From positions 1-44,657 of the forward strand of contig CABXRG010000007.1 of the NCBI GenBank assembly GCA_902514615.1: a stretch of 44,657 nt of DNA, given 5' to 3'. How positions within the stretch are numbered: position 1 is the first letter of the stretch; each line of letters opens with the position of its first letter. Below, in pieces: positions 23,926 to 36,739 of this stretch. The position numbers and the translations under genes were made by a program. The notes beneath the pieces are model-generated. The model searched no databases. It was not told the DNA's origin and worked only from the letters and a program-made list of their open reading frames with translations. The DNA is from an uncultured Bacteroidota bacterium. GTDB taxonomy: Bacteria; Bacteroidota; Bacteroidia; Flavobacteriales; Flavobacteriaceae.

Positions 23926-23951
23926 AAAAAAGGGGATTTATCCCCTTTTTT
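23926..23951. terminator. Bidirectional terminator between purF and sodA
   Basis: An 11-bp perfect stem (AAAAAAGGGGA with TCCCCTTTTTT) around a TTTA loop, with A- and T-runs at both sides, so it can act on both strands. Its right arm touches the sodA stop codon (23951-23953). The remaining spacer (23818-23925) shows no ORF or promoter box. Confidence 0.85.
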
Positions 23952-24553
23952 TATTTCTCTGTAAATTTTCTGTTTACTTCATCCCAATTAATTACATTAA
24001 AAAATGCATTTATATAATCAGGTCTTCTGTTTTGATAATTTAGATAGTATGCATGTTCCCAAACATCTAGACAAAGTATTGGATCACCTCCACAACCATT
24101 AGACATTAATGGGTTATCTTGATTTGCTGTAGAACATATTTCAAGTTTTCCATTGGAATGAGCACATAACCAAGCCCATCCAGAGCCAAATCTAGTTGCA
24201 GCTGCTTTACTAAATTCATTTTTGAAATTTTCAAATGAACCAAAATTAGACTTTATTGATTCTGAAATTTCAGATTTTGGTTCTCCTCCACAGTTGGGAC
24301 CCATTATTTCCCAAAATAGATTATGATTATAGTACCCTCCTGCATTATTTCTTAATCCACCGTTACTAAGATCTAAAGATTTCAGTATTTCTTGAATATC
24401 TTTATTTTCATTATCAGTTCCTGAAATAAGGTTATTTAAGTTATTAGTGTAACCATTATGGTGTTTTCCATAATGAATTTCCATAGTTTTAGCATCTATG
24501 TTTGGTTCTAATGCATCAAAAGCATAATTTAATTTAGGTAATTCGAAAGCCAT
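23951..24553 (-). CDS. sodA: Superoxide dismutase (Fe/Mn)
   Basis: 200 residues. All four metal ligands are visible: His27 in EIHYGKHH, His77 in [10 protein letters not shown], Asp163 and His167 in [10 protein letters not shown]. Converts superoxide to oxygen and hydrogen peroxide in the cytoplasm. Whether it uses Fe or Mn cannot be read with confidence. It is divergent from the helicase-nuclease gene, with 49 bp between starts. Confidence 0.95.
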
Positions 24554-24602: not shown

Positions 24603-27600
24603 ATGGACTACTCATTTAAAATAATAAATTCTTCAGCAGGATCTGGTAAAACCTTTAATCTTGCAATTGCTTATATAGCTAAACTTTTAAAAAATGAAGA
24701 TGATGAGCATTTTAAATCAATGCTGGCTCTGACTTTTACAAATAAGGCTTCGATTGAGATGAAAGATCGAATATTGATCTACTTATCTGATTTAAAACAT
24801 AAAAGGAACAAAATAATATATGATATTATTATAGAAAAAACTGGTCTAGATCAATTAACTATTGAGAAAAAATCTTCCAATATTTTAGAAAAAATTTTAC
24901 ATCATTATTCAAATTTTAATGTAATAACAATTGATAGTTTTACAAATAATATTATCAAAAGTATATCTGAGGTATCAGAGAATAAAGATGATTATATAAT
25001 TGAACTTGATAATTCAGTTTATTTAGACCAAGTTATTGACGAATTATTCTCAGATTTAGATGAAGATTATGACCTAAAAGAATTATTTATTGAGTTTGCT
25101 AAATTCAAGCTCTCTATTAATCAAAGTTGGGATATTTCCTACGATTTAAAAGATTTTGGATTATTTATAGATAAAGAATCAAATAGAGATCAAGTAGATT
25201 ATTTTAAAAAAATGAATTTTAATTTATTCTACCAGATAAAAAATAAATTATCTATAATTAAAGGGGAGAATACATCAAATATTAATGATTTAATTAACAA
25301 TTCAATTGAATTAATAAGTAATAACGGCCTAGGAGAAACTGATTTCAGAGGAGGTTTTTTAGTTAAATATTTAAAATCTTTTATAAATGAGGATAGCTTC
25401 TACATTAATGATTCAATTGAAAGATCCTTAAAGGGAGAATCTAATTTATATAACAAAACTCTTGAAAAACATAAGGTAGAAAGAATCGAAAAAATTAGAT
25501 TGAGTCTACTTAATAATTACTTAACAACAAAAAAATTAATAATAGAGATTTACAAGATAAACTCAAGTTTATCTTTTCTTCCTTCATTATCTCTAATTTC
25601 AAGAATTGAAAAAAAAATTAATCAAATTCAAACTGATAATAAAATTAGACTTATAAGTAAATTTAATTCCCAACTAAATCTACTTATTAAGCTAAACGAA
25701 GCTCCATACATATATGAAAAACTAGGATCTAGATATATTGATTTTTTTATAGATGAATTCCAAGATACATCTGAACTTCAATGGGAAAATCTAATTCCAT
25801 TAATTTCAAATTCTGTCCACAGTGAGTCACATGATGGTTCAAAAGGTTCTCTGCTGATTGTGGGGGATCCAAAACAATCTATTTATAGATGGCGTGGAGG
25901 TAAGTTTAATCAATTTATAAACTTAATATATAATCGATCAAACCCTTTTCATTTTAAACCAATTTTAGAGAATACAGATATTAATTATAGAAGTTGTAAA
26001 GAAATTGTTGATTTTAATTCAGATTTCTTTAATTATTTATCTAATGAATTAGATATAGAAATATACAACTCAGATGATTTAAATTTTAATCAAAGTTCTA
26101 ATAAAAAAGAAAGTGGCTATGTTTCTATTGATACCTCAGAGGAGGATTTATTTTATTCAAAAATTGAAAATCAAATTTTAGATGTATTAAATAGGGGTTT
26201 TTCACCATCTGACATAACTATTTTAGTTAGAAAAAACAGATATGCTAAAGAGCTAATTGAAAATATTAATAATTCAAAATTTGAATTAATCTCTAGTGAT
26301 ATTCTTCAAATTAACAACTCTGTAAAAGTACAATTTATTATTTCACTTTTTAAGTTAAGACTTAATGCTAATGATTATTACGAAAGAAAAAGAGTTGTAG
26401 ATTTCTTATTTAACGAAAATTATTTTGAGAAGAATTATGATAATTTAAATCAATGTTTTTTTAATAACCTTTCAAAAATCAATATAAATGAGTTCTTCAA
26501 AAATATTTCAAAAAATAAATTTGACTTTACACACTTCTCTTCTCTAGATGTCTTAGACGCAATTAAATATTGTTCATCTATTTTTAAGTTAGACACTGCA
26601 GATCCATTTATTATTGCTTTAATAGATGATATTTTTGAATTTCTTGAAAGCAATGAGAATTCAATCAAAGCATTTCTTTTACATTGGAAAAAAAAGTCAG
26701 ATAATATAAACTTAAATATATCTGCAAATCAAAATTCAATTAGTATTTCCACTATTCACAAATCAAAAGGACTTGAGTTTCCTGTTGTAATTTCACCTAT
26801 TTACAGTGATAAACTTGATGAAAATAATTACAAAGATCTCATCTGGTTATATGAACCCTTTGAAAGCATAAATAATTTGAAGTGGATTTTAATGAGAAAA
26901 ACAAAAAACCTCTTAAATATGGGTGATACTGCTAAAGAGATGTTTGAAAGTGGTGTTTTTAACAATTTATTAGATTCAATAAATTTACTTTATGTGGCTT
27001 TTACAAGAGCTGAAAAAGAACTTTATATTATTTCAAAAAAAGATACCTCTAGTGTTAAAACGTTTTCTAGTTTAATTCAAGATTTCTTAGAGTATAAGTC
27101 AAAAACAAATAATTATTCTTTAGGTAAAAAAACTATACATAAAAATATTTTAGAAGAAATTGATTTAGAATTAAATAATTCAAAGAAGAAAAAAATAAAT
27201 ATAATTTCAACTTCCAAGAATGTAAATCAAGCAAAATATATATCTGATACACTATCTAAAATTTACAGTAAAGATAAATCTGCAAAAGTTTTTGTTTTTT
27301 TTGCAAATCAAAAACTATTCAAGCTTGTAAACTTTTATGACGATAGTAATAATTTAACTTTTTCTTCAAACTATCATCTTTTTGAATTAAAAAATCCCGC
27401 ATTTGATCATGTTATAATTTCTAATATGAATGAAGGATTATTCCCTTTTAGTGATATTAAAGAGGGAACTCTGTCTAATTCAGATAAACTACAATTTGAT
27501 AACATGACTCAAAATGATCAAGAAAATAAAATATCAAATATGTTTTATGAATTGATAAATAATTCCAAAGAAATTCATTTAATCTATGACTCTGACTTAA

Positions 27601-28562
27601 ACTCTTTTATAAGTGGTGAAAAAAGCAGATATATCAAACAGTTAGAATTATTAAAACAAGAGTCTTATGTGTGTGTGAGAAAAGTAATAACTCAAAAAAT
27701 TAGTACCAAAAAAAGTGAATCGGCTTTAATTAAAAAAGATAGTTTAATTGATAATAAACTTGACAATATTTTAAAACAGGGAATTTCAGCTTCGACTCTA
27801 AATCTATTTATAAAAAATCCATACTTGTTTTATGAGCAGAAAATTCTTAATGTCAATGATATTGAAGAATCTATATATTTAAATTATATGGACCAAGGGA
27901 CGTTAATTCATAAAGTAATTGAAAGATTATACAAACCTTATATAGGATTAAATCTTGAAGTAAAACACATAGATTTAATGAAGAAAGAATTAGTAAATGA
28001 ATCAGTAAATTCATTTACTGAACTTTATTCTAAAGAGCCAAAAGGCAAAAATTTAATATTTATTGAAGTTTTAAAAGAGTACATTAATAACACTCTTAAT
28101 TATGAGAAGAATCAATTAATAAATGACAAAGCTAAGATTAAAATAATCTCATTAGAAAAAAAAATATCTACTAATATTTCAGTTAAAAATAAAGATGTAA
28201 AGCTTAATGGTATTATAGATAGAATAGATTTATATAATGGTGGATTAAGAGTAATAGATTATAAATCTGGATTAGTAAATCAAGGAGTTTTAGATTTAAA
28301 ATATATTGATAAAATTAAAACAGATCACAAACTTTCTTATCTACTCCAGTTACTTTTTTATAAATATTTAGCAGGCAATTGCTATACAAATGAGGAAATT
28401 ATAGATATTGGTATATGCTCATTAAAAAAAAGAAACTCTCCATTTCTTTTTGTAAAAGATCATTCAGCATTACCTATTAAAAAAATTAAAATGATTTTAT
28501 CAGACATTATATCAGATATTTTAGAAACAAATGAGTTTATTGATTCGGGAAATCCTTTGTGA
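24603..28562 (+). CDS. AddA-AddB fusion: UvrD-type helicase joined to AddB-like nuclease
   Basis: 1319 residues in one frame. Residues 1 to about 850 are a complete SF1A helicase of the AddA/RecB kind: motif I SSAGSGKT (about 10-17), Ia TFTNKASIEMK, Ic TIDSF, II IDEFQDTS (about 384), III VGDPKQSIYRWRGG (about 419), IV NYRS (about 460), V STIHKSKGLEFPVV (about 715), and VI LYVAFTRAEKEL (about 796). From about 862 the sequence resembles AddB: NVNQAKYISDTLSKI, then IISNMNEGLFPF (about 938), SASTLNLFIKNPYLFYEQKIL, and a PD-(D/E)XK nuclease (GTLIHKVIERLY, about 1099; GIIDRIDLY and VIDYKSG, about 1203-1222; then QLLFYKYL). AddA's own nuclease domain and roughly the first half of AddB are absent. 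Predicted role is double-strand-break end resection. The 3' end overlaps crtI by 26 nt. Confidence 0.8.
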   Translation: MDYSFKIINSSAGSGKTFNLAIAYIAKLLKNEDDEHFKSMLALTFTNKASIEMKDRILIYLSDLKHKRNKIIYDIIIEKTGLDQLTIEKKSSNILEKILHHYSNFNVITIDSFTNNIIKSISEVSENKDDYIIELDNSVYLDQVIDELFSDLDEDYDLKELFIEFAKFKLSINQSWDISYDLKDFGLFIDKESNRDQVDYFKKMNFNLFYQIKNKLSIIKGENTSNINDLINNSIELISNNGLGETDFRGGFLVKYLKSFINEDSFYINDSIERSLKGESNLYNKTLEKHKVERIEKIRLSLLNNYLTTKKLIIEIYKINSSLSFLPSLSLISRIEKKINQIQTDNKIRLISKFNSQLNLLIKLNEAPYIYEKLGSRYIDFFIDEFQDTSELQWENLIPLISNSVHSESHDGSKGSLLIVGDPKQSIYRWRGGKFNQFINLIYNRSNPFHFKPILENTDINYRSCKEIVDFNSDFFNYLSNELDIEIYNSDDLNFNQSSNKKESGYVSIDTSEEDLFYSKIENQILDVLNRGFSPSDITILVRKNRYAKELIENINNSKFELISSDILQINNSVKVQFIISLFKLRLNANDYYERKRVVDFLFNENYFEKNYDNLNQCFFNNLSKININEFFKNISKNKFDFTHFSSLDVLDAIKYCSSIFKLDTADPFIIALIDDIFEFLESNENSIKAFLLHWKKKSDNINLNISANQNSISISTIHKSKGLEFPVVISPIYSDKLDENNYKDLIWLYEPFESINNLKWILMRKTKNLLNMGDTAKEMFESGVFNNLLDSINLLYVAFTRAEKELYIISKKDTSSVKTFSSLIQDFLEYKSKTNNYSLGKKTIHKNILEEIDLELNNSKKKKINIISTSKNVNQAKYISDTLSKIYSKDKSAKVFVFFANQKLFKLVNFYDDSNNLTFSSNYHLFELKNPAFDHVIISNMNEGLFPFSDIKEGTLSNSDKLQFDNMTQNDQENKISNMFYELINNSKEIHLIYDSDLNSFISGEKSRYIKQLELLKQESYVCVRKVITQKISTKKSESALIKKDSLIDNKLDNILKQGISASTLNLFIKNPYLFYEQKILNVNDIEESIYLNYMDQGTLIHKVIERLYKPYIGLNLEVKHIDLMKKELVNESVNSFTELYSKEPKGKNLIFIEVLKEYINNTLNYEKNQLINDKAKIKIISLEKKISTNISVKNKDVKLNGIIDRIDLYNGGLRVIDYKSGLVNQGVLDLKYIDKIKTDHKLSYLLQLLFYKYLAGNCYTNEEIIDIGICSLKKRNSPFLFVKDHSALPIKKIKMILSDIISDILETNEFIDSGNPL

Positions 28563-30009
28563 CGATACTGGACACAATCTTTCCAGAAATCAATGATGGA
28601 GGAACGCCAGGACCAGGAACAGTCAGTTGGCCAGTAAAATAAAGACCTTTTATTTTTTTACTTCTAATACTTGGTTTAAAAATTGAAGTTTGAAATAACG
28701 TGTTAGCTAATCCATAGGCATTACCTTTGTATGAATTATATTCATTAATAAAATCTTTTACACAAAAAGATTTTTTATACACAATATGATCGCTTATTTT
28801 TTCTCCTGAAACCTCTTCAATTCTTTTAAGTACAACTTCTAAATATTTATCTCTAATACTTTCTTCATCTTCTAGGTCTGGTGCAATTGGAACTAAAATA
28901 AAACAATTTTCGTGTCCTTTTGGCGCCATACTTTGATCTGTTAATGAAGGAAAATTTAAATAAAAAAGTGGAGATTCAGGCCATTTTGGATTATCGTAAA
29001 TTTCAGAGGCATGTTTATTAAAGTCAACATCAAAAAAAAGGTTGTGGTGATTAAGTTTTTTTATTTTTTTATCTAAACCAATGTAAAATAGAAGGGAGGA
29101 GGGAGCAAATACTTTTTTATCCCAATAGGAGTCTGAATAATTTTTTAGATGATTAGGAATAAGTTTCTCAGTATGATTATAATCAGCTCCACTTATTACA
29201 ATATCACATAAAAAGCTATTACCATTTGCAACCACTCCAGTAACTTTTTTATTTTCTACTAATATCTCATTAACTGGATGATTTGATTTAAATTTTACTC
29301 CTTTTTCTACAGCAAGTTCAATCATAGATTCAACCACTCTATACATCCCCCCCCTTTCTGGGAACCATGTTCCTAATCCAAAATCTGCATGATTCATTAT
29401 GTTATAAAAAGCAGGGGTTTTTTCTGGTTTTGCACCTAGGAATAGAACAGGAAACTCAAGAATTTGTTTTAGCTTACTATTTTTGAAGTATTTAGATACT
29501 TCTGATTTAATGTTAGTAGCAAAGTACCTTAAGCGTCTAACGGTTCCAAACGTGATTAATTCTAAAATAGATTCTCCCGGTTTATAAACAACTTTTTCCA
29601 TTGCAATGGAGTAATTTTTTTTGGCTTCAGCCATAAATTGTTTCAACTTTTTTGATGCACCTTTTTCATGTTTTTCAAAAGTTTGACTAATTTTTTCAAG
29701 ATCATCTCCAATCTCTATAAAGTCATTTTTACCAAAGTAAACTCTATAGGCTGGGTCTAACTTTTTTAGAGTGTAATAATCTTCAACTCTTTTATTAAAG
29801 TCATTAAAGTATTTTTCAAAAACATCTGGCATCCAGTACCAAGAAGGCCCCATATCAAAGGTAAAGCCTTGAGCTTCGAATTTTCTTGCTCTACCACCAA
29901 AAGATTTATTTTTTTCAAGTATAGTTACATCATATCCTATATCTGCTAGATAAGTTGCAGCAGAAATTGAAGAAAAACCAGAACCAATAATTATAATTTT
30001 TTTAGTCAT
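28537..30009 (-). CDS. crtI: Phytoene desaturase family protein (CrtI)
   Basis: 490 residues. N-terminal FAD-binding Rossmann motif IIIGSGFSSISAATYLA, then GGRARKFEAQGFTFDMGPSWYWMP, a hallmark of bacterial CrtI. The C-terminus has GLYFTGQLTVPGPGVPPSLISGK, the second FAD-binding block. It desaturates phytoene towards lycopene for carotenoid pigments. crtB, which often sits beside crtI, is not here; a CruF-like carotenoid gene lies at the right edge of the window. A close homologue such as CrtD is possible. The start overlaps a 31-codon ORF by 8 nt. Confidence 0.88.
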   Translation of the reverse strand: MTKKIIIIGSGFSSISAATYLADIGYDVTILEKNKSFGGRARKFEAQGFTFDMGPSWYWMPDVFEKYFNDFNKRVEDYYTLKKLDPAYRVYFGKNDFIEIGDDLEKISQTFEKHEKGASKKLKQFMAEAKKNYSIAMEKVVYKPGESILELITFGTVRRLRYFATNIKSEVSKYFKNSKLKQILEFPVLFLGAKPEKTPAFYNIMNHADFGLGTWFPERGGMYRVVESMIELAVEKGVKFKSNHPVNEILVENKKVTGVVANGNSFLCDIVISGADYNHTEKLIPNHLKNYSDSYWDKKVFAPSSLLFYIGLDKKIKKLNHHNLFFDVDFNKHASEIYDNPKWPESPLFYLNFPSLTDQSMAPKGHENCFILVPIAPDLEDEESIRDKYLEVVLKRIEEVSGEKISDHIVYKKSFCVKDFINEYNSYKGNAYGLANTLFQTSIFKPSIRSKKIKGLYFTGQLTVPGPGVPPSLISGKIVSSIVTKDFPNQ

Positions 30010-30149: not shown

Positions 30150-30662
30150 ATGAGAGCGTTTTTAGATAATAAATTTTTATTAATTATAATTCTAATTACA
30201 TCATGCAATCAAACTGTAGATAATAATTCTAATTCAATTGAAAATAAAGAAAAATCGATTGAAGCAGTTTTTGAAATTCCATTAATACTTGAAGATGATT
30301 TTAAACTAGAGAATAATCTTGACAGTTGGTCTGAGTTTAACCGTATAGAATATTATACTCTAGCCCTAGCAAATTCAATAAGTGGTTATCTTGAAAATGA
30401 TTATACTTATTTATCAGAAACACTGAATTCTTTGAGTAAATACTCAAGTGAAATGTCTAGTTCAGAATTTTCGTTATATGAGAATAGACCAGAAATAAAA
30501 GGAAGATTAAAACTTTTAAATATTCAAATTCAAAACACAAATCTTAACATTAAGGATTGGGACAAAGTGAAGGGACTTGAAGAGTTAAATAAAATATTGA
30601 AATTCTACAATTATTCAGTAAACACTATTGAGTCAATTTTGGATGATAATTTATTAAATTAA
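30150..30662 (+). CDS. Lipoprotein of unknown function
   Basis: 170 residues from ATG 30150, which begins a clear lipoprotein signal (MRAFLDNKFLLIIILITSC, Cys at residue 19). A TTG at 30108 would add 14 polar residues in front and spoil the signal. After a Ser/Asn-rich linker the protein is mostly helical and acidic, with a conserved-looking WSEFNRIEYYTLALANSISGYL segment. No domain is recognised. It overlaps the end of metG by 4 nt on the opposite strand and is divergent from the crtI unit. Confidence 0.65.
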   Translation: MRAFLDNKFLLIIILITSCNQTVDNNSNSIENKEKSIEAVFEIPLILEDDFKLENNLDSWSEFNRIEYYTLALANSISGYLENDYTYLSETLNSLSKYSSEMSSSEFSLYENRPEIKGRLKLLNIQIQNTNLNIKDWDKVKGLEELNKILKFYNYSVNTIESILDDNLLN

Positions 30663-32347
30663 AGGTTCTTTTTTAATTTATTAATTTGAAATTCAATTTC
30701 AGAATCTTCTATTCTTCTAAATAACATTTCTTTATTTATAATTGTAAAATTGAAATCTATTTCACTACTTAGATTCTCAAGATTAGTCCATTCTGATTTA
30801 TTAAGCCCAATCATTTTTTTTAGCTTTTCAGATATATAAGGCATGAATGGTTCGGAAAGAACGGCCAAGTAAACAACTATTTCAAAAGAAGTTTTTAATA
30901 TCTCCTCAACTCTTTCAGGATTTTCATTTTTTATTTTCCATGGTTCATTATCTGCCAGATGTTTGTTGCCTGTTCTAGCTATGCTCATTAGATTTTTTAG
31001 AGCCTCCCTAAATTTAAACTCATTTAAATTGGATTGAATATTATTTTTTAGAGAAACAACTTCTTTAAGAACTTCAGTGTCACTATCAGTTACAGTTTTT
31101 GGATTAGGTATTTTACCTTCATAATATTTATCTATTAATGAAAGCACACGATTAGTGAAGTTACCGAATATAGAAACTAACTCACTATTATTTCTCGTTT
31201 GAAATTCCTTCCATGTAAAATCATTATCCTTAGTCTCAGGGCAAGTTGATGTTAGGACGTATCTGAGAACATCCTGCATGTCGGGAAACTCAATTAAATA
31301 TTCATGAAGCCATACTGCCCAGTTTCTAGAAGTTGATATTTTATCTCCTTCTAAATTAAGAAATTCATTTGCGGGAACATTTTTGGGTAAAATAAAATCT
31401 CCAAACATTTTTAACATTATAGGAAAAATGACACAATGAAACACAATGTTATCCTTCCCAATAAAATGAATAAGATTGGTTTTAGGATTCTTCCAATAAT
31501 GTTCCCAATCTTTATTATTATTTTGAGCCCATTCCTTGGTTGATGAAATATATCCAATAGGCGCTTCAAACCAAACATATAATACTTTTCCATCATCACC
31601 ATCTACCTGAACAGGAATACCCCAATCTAAGTCTCTAGTTACTGCTCTAGGTTTTAAACCACTGTCAAGCCATGATTTCACTTGTCCAATTACATTGGTC
31701 TTCCACTTATCTTTATTTTCAACAGTTATCCAATTTCTAAGGAATTCCTCAAACTCATTAAGTTTTATATAATAATGTTTAGTCTCCTTTAAAATTGGAG
31801 TAGAATCTGATATAGTTGATTTTGGATTTTTTAATTCTTCTGGACTTAATGTAGATCCACATTTCTCACATTGATCTCCATAAGCATCTTTAGCATCACA
31901 TACAGGACAGTCACCTGAAATATATCTATCAGCTAAAAATTGATTTTCTTCAGCATCATAAAATTGCTCAGACTTTATTAATGAAAAAAGATTTTTCTCC
32001 TTTAATGTATTGAATAATTCTAAAGATGTTTCATGATGAATTTTTTTGGAGGTTCTAGAATAATTATCAAATGAAATTCCAAATTCATCAAAAGATGTTT
32101 TTATGATATTATCATATTTATCAATTAACTCTTTAGGTGATATTGATGCTTTTTTCGAAGCTAAAGATATTGCAACACCATGTTCATCACTTCCACATAT
32201 AAATGCCACCTCATTACCTGTAAGTCTTTTATATCTAGCATATATATCTGCAGGGATATAAACACCAGCTAAATGACCAATATGAATAGGCCCATTAGCA
32301 TATGGTAAAGCTGCAGTAATTGTAAAAGTTTCTTTATTTTTTAACAT
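30659..32347 (-). CDS. metG: Methionine-tRNA ligase, short form
   Basis: 562 residues. Class I signature HIGH lies in ANGPIHIGHLAGVYIP (about 17-32) and the KMSKS equivalent in EGDKISTSRNW. The zinc knuckle is CPVCDAKDAYGDQCEKCG (CxxC...CxxC). The anticodon-binding helical bundle follows (DNEPWKI landmark) and the protein ends in a coiled segment SEIEFQINKLKKNL. The dimerising C-terminal tRNA-binding (EMAP/Trbp111) domain carried by many Bacteroidetes and by E. coli MetG is absent. Divergent from dnaE over 72 bp. Confidence 0.93.
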   Translation of the reverse strand: MLKNKETFTITAALPYANGPIHIGHLAGVYIPADIYARYKRLTGNEVAFICGSDEHGVAISLASKKASISPKELIDKYDNIIKTSFDEFGISFDNYSRTSKKIHHETSLELFNTLKEKNLFSLIKSEQFYDAEENQFLADRYISGDCPVCDAKDAYGDQCEKCGSTLSPEELKNPKSTISDSTPILKETKHYYIKLNEFEEFLRNWITVENKDKWKTNVIGQVKSWLDSGLKPRAVTRDLDWGIPVQVDGDDGKVLYVWFEAPIGYISSTKEWAQNNNKDWEHYWKNPKTNLIHFIGKDNIVFHCVIFPIMLKMFGDFILPKNVPANEFLNLEGDKISTSRNWAVWLHEYLIEFPDMQDVLRYVLTSTCPETKDNDFTWKEFQTRNNSELVSIFGNFTNRVLSLIDKYYEGKIPNPKTVTDSDTEVLKEVVSLKNNIQSNLNEFKFREALKNLMSIARTGNKHLADNEPWKIKNENPERVEEILKTSFEIVVYLAVLSEPFMPYISEKLKKMIGLNKSEWTNLENLSSEIDFNFTIINKEMLFRRIEDSEIEFQINKLKKNL

Positions 32348-32419: not shown

Positions 32420-35400
32420 ATGTTTTTAATTTTTGATACAGAAACTACTGGTTTACCAAAAAAATGGAGTGCGCCTTTAACAGATTTTGACAATTGGCCA
32501 AGAGCAATTCAAGTAGCTTGGCAAGTTCATGATTTGAGTGGAAATTGTATATCAAATCAAAGTTATATTGTCCACCCAGATGGTTTTTCAATTCCATATG
32601 ATTCAGAAAAAATACATGGAATTTCAACTCAATTAGCAAAAAAAATTGGAGTAGACATAAGCTTTGTTTTGACTAAGTTTCAAGAGGATCTTAATAAATC
32701 AAAGTTTATATGTGGACATAATTTAAATTTTGATGAAAAGATTATGGGCTCTGAATATATAAGATCTTATGGAAGCAACCCACTTCAAGACTTTCCAAAA
32801 ATAGATACCTGTACCGAAGAAACAGCAGGAATTTGTATGCTTAAAGGAGGAAGAGGAAGGAAGTTTAAACTACCAACTTTAATGGAGCTGTATACTCATT
32901 TGTTTAATGAAAAATTTGAATCTGCTCATAATGCCTCAGCGGATGTTGAAGCAACAGCATTGTGTCTATTTAAGTTATTAAAAGAACAAAAGATTCATCC
33001 AAATTCTCTTTCAGACCATATAGATATTATAGATAAACTGGCTGATCTTGATCTTGCTAAAATCAAAGTAGCTGATATAGTACATATCGATTTATTTGAT
33101 CAGTCAAAACAATTAAAGGAAAACATAAAGCCAGATACTACTGAAGAATCTGTTTCAATTAAAGAAGTTTCTCAAGAATTTAAGTTTGGTCATTTACACT
33201 CTTACACTCAATTTTCAATATTACAATCAACATCCAAGATTTCAGATTTATTAAAGTATTCAATAGAGCATTCTCATGATGCAATGGCTATTACAGATAA
33301 ATCAAATCTTATGGGAGCATTTCACTTTATAAAAACACTTAAAAATTATAATGAAAACCTTAAAGAAGGTCAAAAATATATTAAGCCAATTATTGGTTGT
33401 GAGTTAAATGTATGTGAAAATCATCTAGATAAATCTAATAGAGATGATGGTTATCAAATGATTTTTTTAGCAAAAAATAAAAATGGATTTAGAAATATTT
33501 CAAAATTGAGTTCAATTGCCAATATTGATGGATTTTATTATCTCCCAAGGATTGATAAAAACATACTTAGCAAATATTCTGAAGACATAGTTGTTTTATC
33601 TGGAGGTTTAAAAGGGGAAATATCTTCAAAAATTCTAAATCAAGGAGAAGAAAAAGCGGAAGAATCTTTAAGCTGGTGGAAAGACACTTATGGATCTGAT
33701 TTTTATCTTGAGATTCAAAGACACAGTCAAGAAAATGAAGACTATGTGCTTCCTATCATTAAAGAATTTAGCTCTAAGTATGGAATAAAACTTATAGCTA
33801 CAAATAATTCTTTCTACACTACTAAATCTGAAGCTAATGCACACGATATATTATTATGTGTAAGAGATGGTGAGAAGCAATCAGTTCCAATTGGAAGGGG
33901 TCGAGGATTTAGATATGGTCTGCCAAATGAAGAGTACTGGTATAAGCCAAAGGATGAAATGTTTAAACTGTTTAATGATATTCCTGACAGCATATATAAT
34001 ATATCTGAAATAATAGATAAAGTGGAACCTTTTGATCTTGCTAGAGAAGTATTGCTTCCAGATTTTAGTGTACCAGAGAAATTTATTCAAAAAAATGACT
34101 TTGATAATCAAAAAGGTCAAAACCTTTATTTAAGACATTTAACCTTAGAGGGGATAAAGTCAAAATATAATAATCTTGATAAAGATCTTCAAGAGAGAAT
34201 TGATTTTGAACTTGATGTAATTTCTAAAACAGGATATCCCGGATATTTTCTAATTGTCCAAGACTTTATTAATGCTGCAAGAGAAATGGGAGTCTCTGTA
34301 GGACCAGGAAGAGGATCAGCTGCAGGATCAGTTGTAGCTTATGCTCTAGGAATAACTAGTATTGATCCTATAAAGTATAACTTGCTTTTTGAAAGATTTT
34401 TAAATCCAGATAGAGTTAGTTTGCCAGATATAGATATTGATTTTGATGATGAAGGACGAAATAAAGTTATAGAATATGTAGTAGATAAATATGGTTCTCA
34501 ACAAGTTGCTCAGATAATTACTTACGGAAGAATGGCAGCTAAATCATCAATAAGAGATACAGGTAGAGTTCTTGATTTATCATTATCAGAGGTTGACCGA
34601 ATTTCAAAACTTGTTCCAAACATGAAGCTTGGCGAAATTTTTTCTAAGAAAGAAATTGATTTAAAATCAGAGCTTAGAACAGACGAGTTTAGTAGAGTTA
34701 GTGAATTAAAAAAACTGTATAATGCTTCAGATTTATCAGCTCAAACTTTAAAACAGGCAAGCATGTTAGAGGGGTCTCTAAGAAATACTGGTATTCATGC
34801 CTGTGGTGTTATTATAACACCAAGTGATATTTCAGAATTCGTTCCAATTACTAAAGCAAAAGATTCAGATTTTTATGTAACACAATTTGATAATTCGGTT
34901 GTTGAAGATGCAGGGCTTTTAAAAATGGATTTCTTAGGCTTAAAGACACTAACTATTATAAAAGATACAGTTAAATTGATAAAATATAAGCATGATATTC
35001 AATTGTATCCAGAGGAGTTTCAGCTTGATGATAAAAAAACTTATGAATTATTCCAAAAAGGAGAAACAGTTGGAATTTTTCAGTATGAATCACCTGGAAT
35101 GCAAAAATATTTAAAGGAATTAAAGCCTTCTGACTTTAATGATCTTATTGCAATGAATGCTTTATATAGACCAGGACCATTAGAATATATACCATCATTT
35201 ATTTCTAGAAAAAATGGATCTGAGCCAATTGCATATGACTTGCCTGAGATGGAAGAATTTCTAAAGGAAACGTATGGAATTACAGTATATCAAGAGCAGG
35301 TAATGTTATTGTCTCAAAAGATTGCAGATTTCTCAAAAGGTGAAGCGGACCTGCTAAGAAAAGCAATGGGAAAGAAAATATTTGCTTTAATTGAGAAGCT

Positions 35401-36739
35401 AAAGCCAAAGTTCATGACTGGAGGTCAGGAGAATGGTTATAGTATTGAAATTTTAGAAAAAATATGGAAAGATTGGGAGGCTTTTGCTTCATATGCTTTT
35501 AATAAATCTCATTCTACTTGTTATGCATTTATAGGTTATCAAACAGCATACTTAAAAGCCAATTATCCATCTGAATATATGGCTGCAGTTCTTTCCAATA
35601 ATATGAATGATATAAAACAAGTTTCATTTTTTATGGAGGAATGCAAGAGAATGGGAATTAGAGTATTAGGTCCAGATATTAATGAATCTTATTATAAGTT
35701 TAATGTCAATGAAGATCAAGCTATTAGATTTGGAATGGGAGCAATTAAAGGAGTTGGAAAAGGAGCTGTAGAGACAATTGTTGAAAACAGAAAAGACGGT
35801 GACTATAAAGACATATATGACTTTGCAAAAAGAATAGATCTTAGATTAGCAAACAAAAAAACTTTTGAAAATCTTGTTTTAGCTGGAGGATTTGATTCAT
35901 TTAAAAATAAAAGAGCTCAATACTTTAATATAGATAATGATGGTCTCACCTTTTTAGAAAAAACTGTAAAGTATGGTGCAAAATATCAAGAATCGATTAA
36001 TTCCTCTCAGATAAGTTTATTTGGGGAAGGTACTATCGATAATACATCTGAATTAAATATGCCAGATTGTGAGGAGTGGATTAATCTTGAGAGATTAAAG
36101 AAGGAAAGGGAAGTTGTGGGTATCTATATTTCGGCTCATCCATTAGATGATTATTTAAGGGAGATTAATAATTTCACATCTACAAGCCTTTCTTCTTTAA
36201 GTGATTTAAATAGAATAGTAAATAAAGATTTTTATGTGGGTGGAATTATTAATGAAGTAGAACATTTAATTTCAAAGACAGGAAATGGATTTGGTGTTTT
36301 TTCATTTGAAGATTTTAATGATCAGTATAAATTCAGAATTTTTGGAGAAGATTATTTAAAGTATAAACACTTACTTGAAGAAAATAAAATTTTAAGATTA
36401 AGAATTGCAATTAAAGAAGGATGGGTAAATAGAGAAACTGGAAGAATTGGAGATCCTAGAATTCAATTTTTAAATATGGAATTATTAGATGGTATTATAG
36501 ACTCAAGTTCTAAAAAAATAACATTTAAAATAGACTCAAGTAATTTCAATGAAAATGAGGTTAAAAAATTAAAAAACACATTATCTAAACATAAAGGTTC
36601 AAAGCCAGTCTATTTTGATATTCATGATTCAAAAAATAAATTCAAATTAAATATGATATCAGAACAAGCTAAGGTATCTATAACAAAAGAGCTACTAGTA
36701 TCACTGGAGCAAGATGAATTTAGATATAAATTAAATTAG
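32420..36739 (+). CDS. dnaE: DNA polymerase III alpha subunit with N-terminal proofreading exonuclease
   Basis: 1439 residues. Residues 1-190 are a DnaQ-like 3'-5' exonuclease: FDTETTGLP (Asp7, Glu9), HNLNFD (exo II), and HNASADVEATALC (exo III His and Asp). A PHP domain follows (about 253-460, FGHLHSYTQFS). The polymerase core has VGPGRGSAAGS and the catalytic aspartates PDIDIDFDDEGR (about 669-680). Later come PGPLEY and YQEQVM, the tandem helix-hairpin-helix/beta-binding region, and an OB-fold (about 1260-1350, VGGIINEVEHLI). Having polymerase and proofreading in one chain, instead of a separate epsilon, is a feature of this phylum. It is the replicative polymerase. Confidence 0.93.
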   Translation: MFLIFDTETTGLPKKWSAPLTDFDNWPRAIQVAWQVHDLSGNCISNQSYIVHPDGFSIPYDSEKIHGISTQLAKKIGVDISFVLTKFQEDLNKSKFICGHNLNFDEKIMGSEYIRSYGSNPLQDFPKIDTCTEETAGICMLKGGRGRKFKLPTLMELYTHLFNEKFESAHNASADVEATALCLFKLLKEQKIHPNSLSDHIDIIDKLADLDLAKIKVADIVHIDLFDQSKQLKENIKPDTTEESVSIKEVSQEFKFGHLHSYTQFSILQSTSKISDLLKYSIEHSHDAMAITDKSNLMGAFHFIKTLKNYNENLKEGQKYIKPIIGCELNVCENHLDKSNRDDGYQMIFLAKNKNGFRNISKLSSIANIDGFYYLPRIDKNILSKYSEDIVVLSGGLKGEISSKILNQGEEKAEESLSWWKDTYGSDFYLEIQRHSQENEDYVLPIIKEFSSKYGIKLIATNNSFYTTKSEANAHDILLCVRDGEKQSVPIGRGRGFRYGLPNEEYWYKPKDEMFKLFNDIPDSIYNISEIIDKVEPFDLAREVLLPDFSVPEKFIQKNDFDNQKGQNLYLRHLTLEGIKSKYNNLDKDLQERIDFELDVISKTGYPGYFLIVQDFINAAREMGVSVGPGRGSAAGSVVAYALGITSIDPIKYNLLFERFLNPDRVSLPDIDIDFDDEGRNKVIEYVVDKYGSQQVAQIITYGRMAAKSSIRDTGRVLDLSLSEVDRISKLVPNMKLGEIFSKKEIDLKSELRTDEFSRVSELKKLYNASDLSAQTLKQASMLEGSLRNTGIHACGVIITPSDISEFVPITKAKDSDFYVTQFDNSVVEDAGLLKMDFLGLKTLTIIKDTVKLIKYKHDIQLYPEEFQLDDKKTYELFQKGETVGIFQYESPGMQKYLKELKPSDFNDLIAMNALYRPGPLEYIPSFISRKNGSEPIAYDLPEMEEFLKETYGITVYQEQVMLLSQKIADFSKGEADLLRKAMGKKIFALIEKLKPKFMTGGQENGYSIEILEKIWKDWEAFASYAFNKSHSTCYAFIGYQTAYLKANYPSEYMAAVLSNNMNDIKQVSFFMEECKRMGIRVLGPDINESYYKFNVNEDQAIRFGMGAIKGVGKGAVETIVENRKDGDYKDIYDFAKRIDLRLANKKTFENLVLAGGFDSFKNKRAQYFNIDNDGLTFLEKTVKYGAKYQESINSSQISLFGEGTIDNTSELNMPDCEEWINLERLKKEREVVGIYISAHPLDDYLREINNFTSTSLSSLSDLNRIVNKDFYVGGIINEVEHLISKTGNGFGVFSFEDFNDQYKFRIFGEDYLKYKHLLEENKILRLRIAIKEGWVNRETGRIGDPRIQFLNMELLDGIIDSSSKKITFKIDSSNFNENEVKKLKNTLSKHKGSKPVYFDIHDSKNKFKLNMISEQAKVSITKELLVSLEQDEFRYKLN

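Follow-up and report, generated by a model that had tools for sequence, protein, structure and literature searches.

A stripped-down AddA-AddB fusion in tiny-genome ocean bacteria that may serve DNA repair without a Chi signal

AddAB and RecBCD are the classic example of destructive enzymes that a DNA word, Chi, converts to repair. According to the available parts of two accounts of AddAB, the AddA motor travels on the 3′ strand and the exit of each strand is lined by a nuclease, that of AddA for the 3′ strand and that of AddB for the 5′ strand (PMC4027173; PMC4824097). Recognition of Chi falls to the helicase-like region at the N-terminus of AddB, after which the 3′ strand is spared from the AddA nuclease and degradation of the 5′ strand continues (PMC4027173; PMC4824097). 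Here, a gene is described in which parts of both subunits are joined in one chain. It lies on the window, the whole 44,657-nucleotide stretch of contig CABXRG010000007.1 that was analysed (28.6% GC), from a flavobacterial draft assembly of 1.03 Mb in 40 contigs (GCA_902514615.1, 80.6% complete; the gene is on contig C7). A first-pass annotation of the letters had proposed an AddA-AddB hybrid that lacks the AddA nuclease and half of AddB. The frame is indeed uninterrupted, with 1319 codons from ATG to stop on the forward strand (Table 1), and the evidence assembled below makes it fairly probable that the product is a one-chain, deletion-born end-resection enzyme, locked in the state that AddAB reaches after Chi and independent of that signal.

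The composition of the protein was examined by profile comparison (hhalign) with AddA and AddB of 12 relatives, by Pfam and by motif patterns. Residues 2-893 align to AddA with an E value of 4e-152, sensibly up to about residue 845, which is right ahead of the AddA nuclease. Residues ~926-1312 align to AddB ~503-906 (E 1.6e-62 over 384 columns, the whole second segment), and a shorter block precedes them. Judged from these profiles, the tail consists of both halves of the AddB 2A domain, with the normally intervening 2B domain gone, and then of the AddB nuclease; the fusion thus lacks the AddA nuclease, AddB 1A/1B and ~190 residues of AddB 2B. Pfam agrees in finding UvrD-helicase at 7-440, UvrD_C at 686-812 and PDDEXK_1 at 1061-1259. 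The tail cannot be AddA's own nuclease, as the AddA profile matches it only with E 5e-4 over 55 columns. The claim that one helicase and one nuclease are kept and that the AddA nuclease and the Chi-reading part of AddB are dropped is therefore supported, and so is the presence of a complete nuclease in an AddB-derived tail. The single AddB half starting at about residue 862 has to be redrawn, with the AddA part ending at ~845 and the tail falling into two AddB blocks (~260-313 and ~503-906). Both the internal 2B deletion and the fact that the kept nuclease is that of the 5′ strand had been missed.

The helicase patterns expected of AddA were found within residues 10-805. Counted over the window and 13 other intact loci of its genus, they are kept in all 14 copies, the pattern of motif V in 13, and the nuclease patterns near H1103, D1206, D1219-Y-K1221 and Q1249 are likewise present in 14 of 14, under motif names that we presume to apply. 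The catalytic residues are invariant in 11 aligned fusion copies. As for the four-cysteine iron-sulphur pattern of AddB, Dna2 and Bad nucleases, no cysteine from residue 1056 onward is common to all 14 fusions.

Structure models point in the same direction. An AlphaFold2 model of the tail (residues 815-1319) reached a predicted local distance difference test score (pLDDT) of 81.5 and a predicted template modelling score (pTM) of 0.56, with pLDDT below 50 at model residues 23-46, the junction region. A Foldseek search of this model against the PDB returned AddB of Bacillus subtilis AddAB as the top match (E 1.0e-10 to 3.4e-10), with AdnA chains almost level (E 1.7e-10 and 2.9e-10). In VIA-align, the match to B. 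subtilis AddB begins at residue ~280-287 and covers 417-421 residues (Z 17.3-18.3), with a root-mean-square deviation (rmsd) of 12 Å over two domains. Since two-domain alignments have an rmsd of at least 12 Å, weight is given only to the single-domain matches, in which model residues 29-216 align to UvrD 298-646 (Z 12.8, 159 residues, rmsd 3.4), that is, to 2A across the missing 2B, and residues 241-505 align to a Cas4-family nuclease (Z 14.4, 217 residues, rmsd 3.4). A model of residues 120-1319, for which the input alignment combined AddA and AddB pieces, reached pLDDT 79.2 and pTM 0.63.

These parts suggest how the protein could work. The AddA motor would enter a DNA end and move along the 3′-ending strand, the AddB 2A domain, deprived of its 1A partner, would act as a scaffold, and the AddB nuclease would cut the displaced 5′-ending strand. 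With the 3′-strand nuclease and its Chi-triggered silencer both gone, the enzyme would be fixed in the condition that AddAB reaches only post-Chi, leaving a 3′ overhang for RecA in break repair from the start. Because the AddB nuclease is the one that cuts the 5′ strand and that of AddA is the one that cuts the Chi-regulated 3′ strand, such an enzyme is predicted to make 3′ overhangs always and independently of Chi. In AddB, F68 and F210 were tested for Chi binding and E129 is the latch partner, according to the available part of the source (PMC4824097). In B. subtilis AddB, all three precede the start of the tail match at residue ~280-287, and the loss of these Chi-binding and latch-control residues strongly suggests that the fusion is blind to Chi; the latch residue R629 lies in the AddB portion that could be retained.

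Whether cutting is confined to the 5′ strand is the point on which another reading turns. RecB likewise has a nuclease behind a helicase in one chain, and RecBCD cuts both strands with its only nuclease. The fusion could thus be a RecB-like destroyer, its tethered nuclease cutting both strands and its overhangs being controlled otherwise, by the Mg/ATP balance or by RecA or SSB coverage. The model of residues 120-1319 does align to RecB chains over 614-779 residues (Z 14.6-15.4), with an rmsd of 28-32, and to one RecB chain over 571 residues with an rmsd of 6.2 (Z 13.9); the NCBIfam recB profile matches the head with 117.8 bits, against a cut-off of 696. The nuclease is nonetheless AddB's by sequence and profile, and AddB chains outrank RecB chains by fold, which leaves this alternative rather unlikely.

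The lost parts were then sought elsewhere in the genomes, with profiles of AddB 1A/1B and of the AddA nuclease (the AddB 2B domain was given no search of its own). The AddB 1A/1B profile has a match at E 3e-41 or better in 24 of 25 genomes from outside the genus and finds nothing convincing in 25 genomes of the genus; the AddA nuclease profile likewise matches 24 of 25 outside and none of the 25 inside. The two weak AddB N-terminal matches in the genus each lie inside a 556-amino-acid frame (G009:C1:249458-249700, E 2.1e-4; G018:C3:112567-112806, E 0.004). Detached copies of these domains can accordingly be set aside as a candidate, none being convincing in the 25 genomes. No separate addA or addB was found in the same set (four of these genomes hold only contig-cut pieces and six no part), and the AddB-type tail is present in 18 of the 25, in one place each and every time in a fused or contig-cut frame. 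In the window's own genome, the single PDDEXK_1 match is the fusion gene, and a search with the whole protein returned only the fusion itself up to E 1. A second full AddB, which would have spoken against the proposal of a hybrid, is thus absent from the genus set apart from those two weak partial matches. The same results bear on the idea that a diverged RecC- or AddB-like second subunit supplies a scanner to the fusion. AddAB, AdnAB and RecBCD are all multi-subunit enzymes, RecC and RecD were not searched for, and the two weak matches could be read in its favour; the profile that recognises AddB 1A/1B in nearly all outside genomes nevertheless finds nothing else in the genus, and such a partner is improbable.

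Within the genus, the fusion is intact in 14 of 25 genomes (window included), frame-broken in one, cut by contig ends in four (G014, G015, G018 and G022) and without any part in six (G001, G002, G003, G012, G013 and G023), each of the six being at most 81% complete. The 13 other intact copies are 58-80% identical to that of the window. Intact genes separated by an assembly gap at the join, which the first-pass annotation had named as refuting, were not found in the genus; the join lies inside intact single frames in all 14 of these genomes. A scan of named contigs gave 13 intact fusions, one broken frame and three cut ones (best 80 of 121 matches), but these loci belong to the same genomes and add no further evidence. 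The carriers by name include Cryomorphaceae bacterium MED-G11 FRAM18_bin151 and the isolates AG-912-I19, AG-435-G19 and AG-447-E18; isolate names of the AG type presumably denote single-cell genomes, and some AG titles say metagenome-assembled genome (MAG). From the record titles, the genus of the window appears to be GTDB MED-G11. MAGs of the NS5 marine group fall into four GTDB genera including MED-G11, there called NS5_A, which has 1.17 Mb and ~30% GC and is the smallest among its genera, as stated in the available part of the source (PMC9122927).

The gene is under purifying constraint and forms one lineage. The whole-gene ratio of nonsynonymous to synonymous substitution rates (dN/dS) is 0.131-0.168 in seven of seven fusion pairs, in two of which dS exceeds 1, and the helicase and nuclease values are alike. 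The junction (residues 831-925) has the highest ratio of four segments in five of the seven pairs, with a range of 0.12-0.52. All fusions form a single clade, supported by 100/100 in a careful helicase tree (55 rows) and by a Shimodaira-Hasegawa approximate likelihood-ratio value of 100 in a quick tail tree (52 rows), and the fusion would have arisen once. The stems of this clade measure 1.43 (helicase tree) and 2.13 (tail tree) changes per column; with branches this long and an uneven letter make-up, the wider placement in the trees means little. The only broken copy in the genus, G007:C22 (L011, L054, L063), stops near the N-terminal part and leaves the remainder open (1138 amino acids), from either a sequencing error or a beginning pseudogene.

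RecJ was found in 19 of the 25 genus genomes and RecO in 20, in 14 of them over its cut-off. These rates are close to that of the fusion (19 of 25 with any part) and the pathway therefore seems to be in place. The presence of RecJ, the long stems and the one broken frame could also fit a decaying or repurposed remnant, with resection performed by other enzymes and the fusion engaged, for example, in Dna2-like flap trimming or on its way out. The dN/dS values rule out a pseudogene and the catalytic patterns are kept, so that a remnant of this kind is very improbable. Although the window comes from a draft of 40 contigs, a false join made by assembly or binning is practically ruled out by the 13 other intact copies, which have the same join, near-equal lengths and the same neighbours and some of which carry the isolate names mentioned above.

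Outside the genus, the two halves are separate genes. Among 35 relatives, 33 have the helicase and tail matches in two separate frames (12 of 12 in the same family and 21 of 23 of the order) and two have neither. In 12 regions fetched from such relatives, addA has 1038-1086 codons and addB 872-938, in good agreement with the two adjacent genes of about 1000 and 900 codons that had been anticipated. All 12 of these relatives retain the H, PDR, DYKTG and Q motifs in their AddA nuclease, and in 18 further proteins H, PDR, K and Q do not vary and the other positions show few changes; therefore, a nuclease that looks active was lost in the fusion lineage. Larger samples, which share genomes, gave the same picture. 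In a family sample with one genome per genus, the tail matched in 117 of 120 and only the window's frame exceeds 1000 amino acids, the other 116 AddB frames having 615-959 amino acids, none of them fused and the shortest (G082) being cut by a contig end. In an order sample (97 matches in 109), the other frames have 655-1051 amino acids except in G297, and no further AddA-AddB fusion was seen. A phylum sample (29 matches in 118; other frames 769-1148 amino acids, the longest being that of G237, which was not opened) revealed no further fusion either, and is weak in that the AddB of many far Bacteroidota has probably diverged too much for the query.

Three observations on these relatives can be added. 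The long frame of G297:C126 has 1438 amino acids in the order sample, and AddB lies there in an ORF of 1408 amino acids (L136:2493-6719), of which the first ~470 residues overlap other open frames; as this stretch resembles neither AddA nor AddB and, at E 1e-4, has no match to the fusion or to any of three AddAs, it was rejected as a further fusion and is probably due to a wrong start upstream. Eleven 0.6-Mb genomes of the same order, apparently of insect-endosymbiont size (G283, G292, G300, G307, G314, G321, G327, G334, G341, G348 and G355), keep an unfused AddB of 757-924 amino acids, and therefore small genome size alone does not lead to fusion. Finally, the iron-sulphur cysteine pattern, compared by eye in 12 aligned AddBs, is absent in 7 of the window's family and seen in 5 of other families, which places the loss of the cluster earlier, in the branch of the window's family.

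The gene order sod, fusion, crtI, with both neighbours on the reverse strand, is that of the genus (Table 1). As sod stands beside addA in part of the relatives, on the side facing away from addB, and beside the fusion here, the fusion sits at the ancestral addA locus; none of the 12 regions fetched from relatives contains a crtI homologue. The addA and addB matches lie within ~8 kb on one strand, with addA first, in 19 of the 33 two-gene relatives. The 12 regions were chosen from these 19 because the two genes are close there, and all 12 have addA upstream of addB on the same strand with 0-2 genes between them; where two are present (for example in L032), they are a glycine C-acetyltransferase gene (kbl) and an OmpA-like gene. 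In the genus, kbl has only a 31-34% identical homologue, found in 22 of 25 genomes at E 1e-30 and with no match in three. It may or may not have stood between the two genes in the immediate ancestor, as some relatives have both genes adjacent and others do not have them as neighbours. The fusion was probably produced by one or more deletions reaching from addA into an addB that lay downstream in the same orientation, which would have removed the AddA nuclease, any intervening genes and AddB 1A/1B and joined the frames, and by another deletion inside AddB that would have taken out the 2B domain.

Table 1. Position of the fused gene, its segments and its neighbours in the window
Feature	Position	Strand	Remarks
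sod, Fe/Mn superoxide dismutase, upstream neighbour	23951..24553	-	also beside addA in 5 of 12 relatives' regions
fused addA-addB gene, 1319 amino acids	24603..28562	+	one frame; homologous intact frames of 1313-1320 amino acids in 13 other genus genomes
AddA-derived SF1A helicase, residues 1-~845	24603..27137	+	Walker A K16, DEFQDTS from 384, motif VI from 795; from hhalign, Pfam and motifs
junction/linker, residues ~846-854	27138..27164	+	lies between the profile matches to the two subunits
AddB 2A domain, first half, residues ~855-910 (AddB ~260-313)	27165..27332	+	hhalign probability 95.6, E 1.3e-8
AddB 2A domain, second half, residues 926-~1050 (AddB from ~503)	27378..27752	+	hhalign; UvrD alignment of tail model
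AddB PD-(D/E)XK nuclease, residues ~1051-1319	27753..28559	+	PF12705 at 1061-1259, E 6.9e-19; catalytic patterns; Cas4 fold
crtI-type phytoene desaturase, convergent	28537..30009	-	overlaps 3′ end of fusion by 26 bases

Further along the window, two other genes were noted. The methionyl-tRNA synthetase at 30659-32347 (reverse strand) has 562 amino acids, and its match to the NCBIfam profile ends at profile position 545 of 676, with genus copies of similar length; its C-terminal part, which we take to be a tRNA-binding domain, seems to have been lost, perhaps as another case of domain trimming. The DNA polymerase III alpha subunit at 32420-36739 (forward strand; 1439 amino acids) carries an N-terminal exonuclease domain (PF00929) at residues 3-180, and whole copies in the genus are equal in length.

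Several points weigh against a Chi-independent one-chain resector born by deletion. The strand choice of AddAB need not survive such re-wiring, given that RecB has the same domain order, and the docking of nuclease and motor is left unsettled by the pTM values of both models. The long stems of the fusion clade leave room for a changed function. RecJ and RecO were not found in the window's own assembly, with its limited completeness. The deletion scenario, moreover, requires an ancestor with clustered addA and addB, and in 14 of the 33 two-gene relatives the two genes are not neighbours, being placed on different contigs, widely separated or, in one case, on opposite strands.

No report of a natural AddA-AddB fusion was seen in the titles and abstract starts of the matches listed, mostly from open-licence literature. 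If the proposed reading holds, the tiny-genome ocean bacteria of this lineage may possess a natural stripped-down repair enzyme that works without the Chi signal. A fused and trimmed lineage shows which parts of AddAB selection can discard and leads to the prediction that Chi becomes needless once the 3′-strand nuclease is gone. The single chain of 1319 residues offers a test object for the minimal requirements of end resection, with a possible trade-off in which overhangs are made steadily but linear phage DNA is destroyed less well. The case further suggests that a streamlining genome can shed single domains of a complex and still keep the complex.

Among known systems, AddAB (RexAB) of the B. 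subtilis type is like the fusion in its AddA SF1A motor and its AddB nuclease, both by descent, and the fusion occupies the addA locus of relatives. AddAB has two subunits, whereas the fusion is one chain without the AddA nuclease, AddB 1A/1B and AddB 2B; the iron-sulphur cysteines are absent, as in the seven AddBs of the same family. With neither the two-subunit structure nor the AddA nuclease and AddB scanner, it is not an AddAB in the strict sense, but it descends from AddAB and probably functions as a part of that enzyme. Wolbachia of isopods have also lost the AddA nuclease naturally, by a premature stop in six strains; the text of that source uses neither 'fusion' nor 'fused' (PMC4224334). 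RecB shares the order of helicase and PD-(D/E)XK nuclease in one chain, but the nuclease of the fusion is AddB-derived and its score far below the recB equivalog cut-off places it in another lineage. Dna2 and the bacterial Bad have the nuclease first and then a helicase of another class, whereas in the fusion the helicase comes first and is of the UvrD/AddA type. Both combine a helicase and a nuclease in one polypeptide, and the fusion would work like them in outline. Bad has an iron-sulphur cluster held by four cysteines (PMC7430649), which the fusion lacks. In conclusion, the balance tips slightly towards a natural resector with one polypeptide, one motor and one nuclease, which would have shed both Chi-control parts to become permanently recombinogenic in a free-living ocean lineage without a Chi system, and which would be a bacterial analogue of a Dna2-like resector, derived from AddAB.

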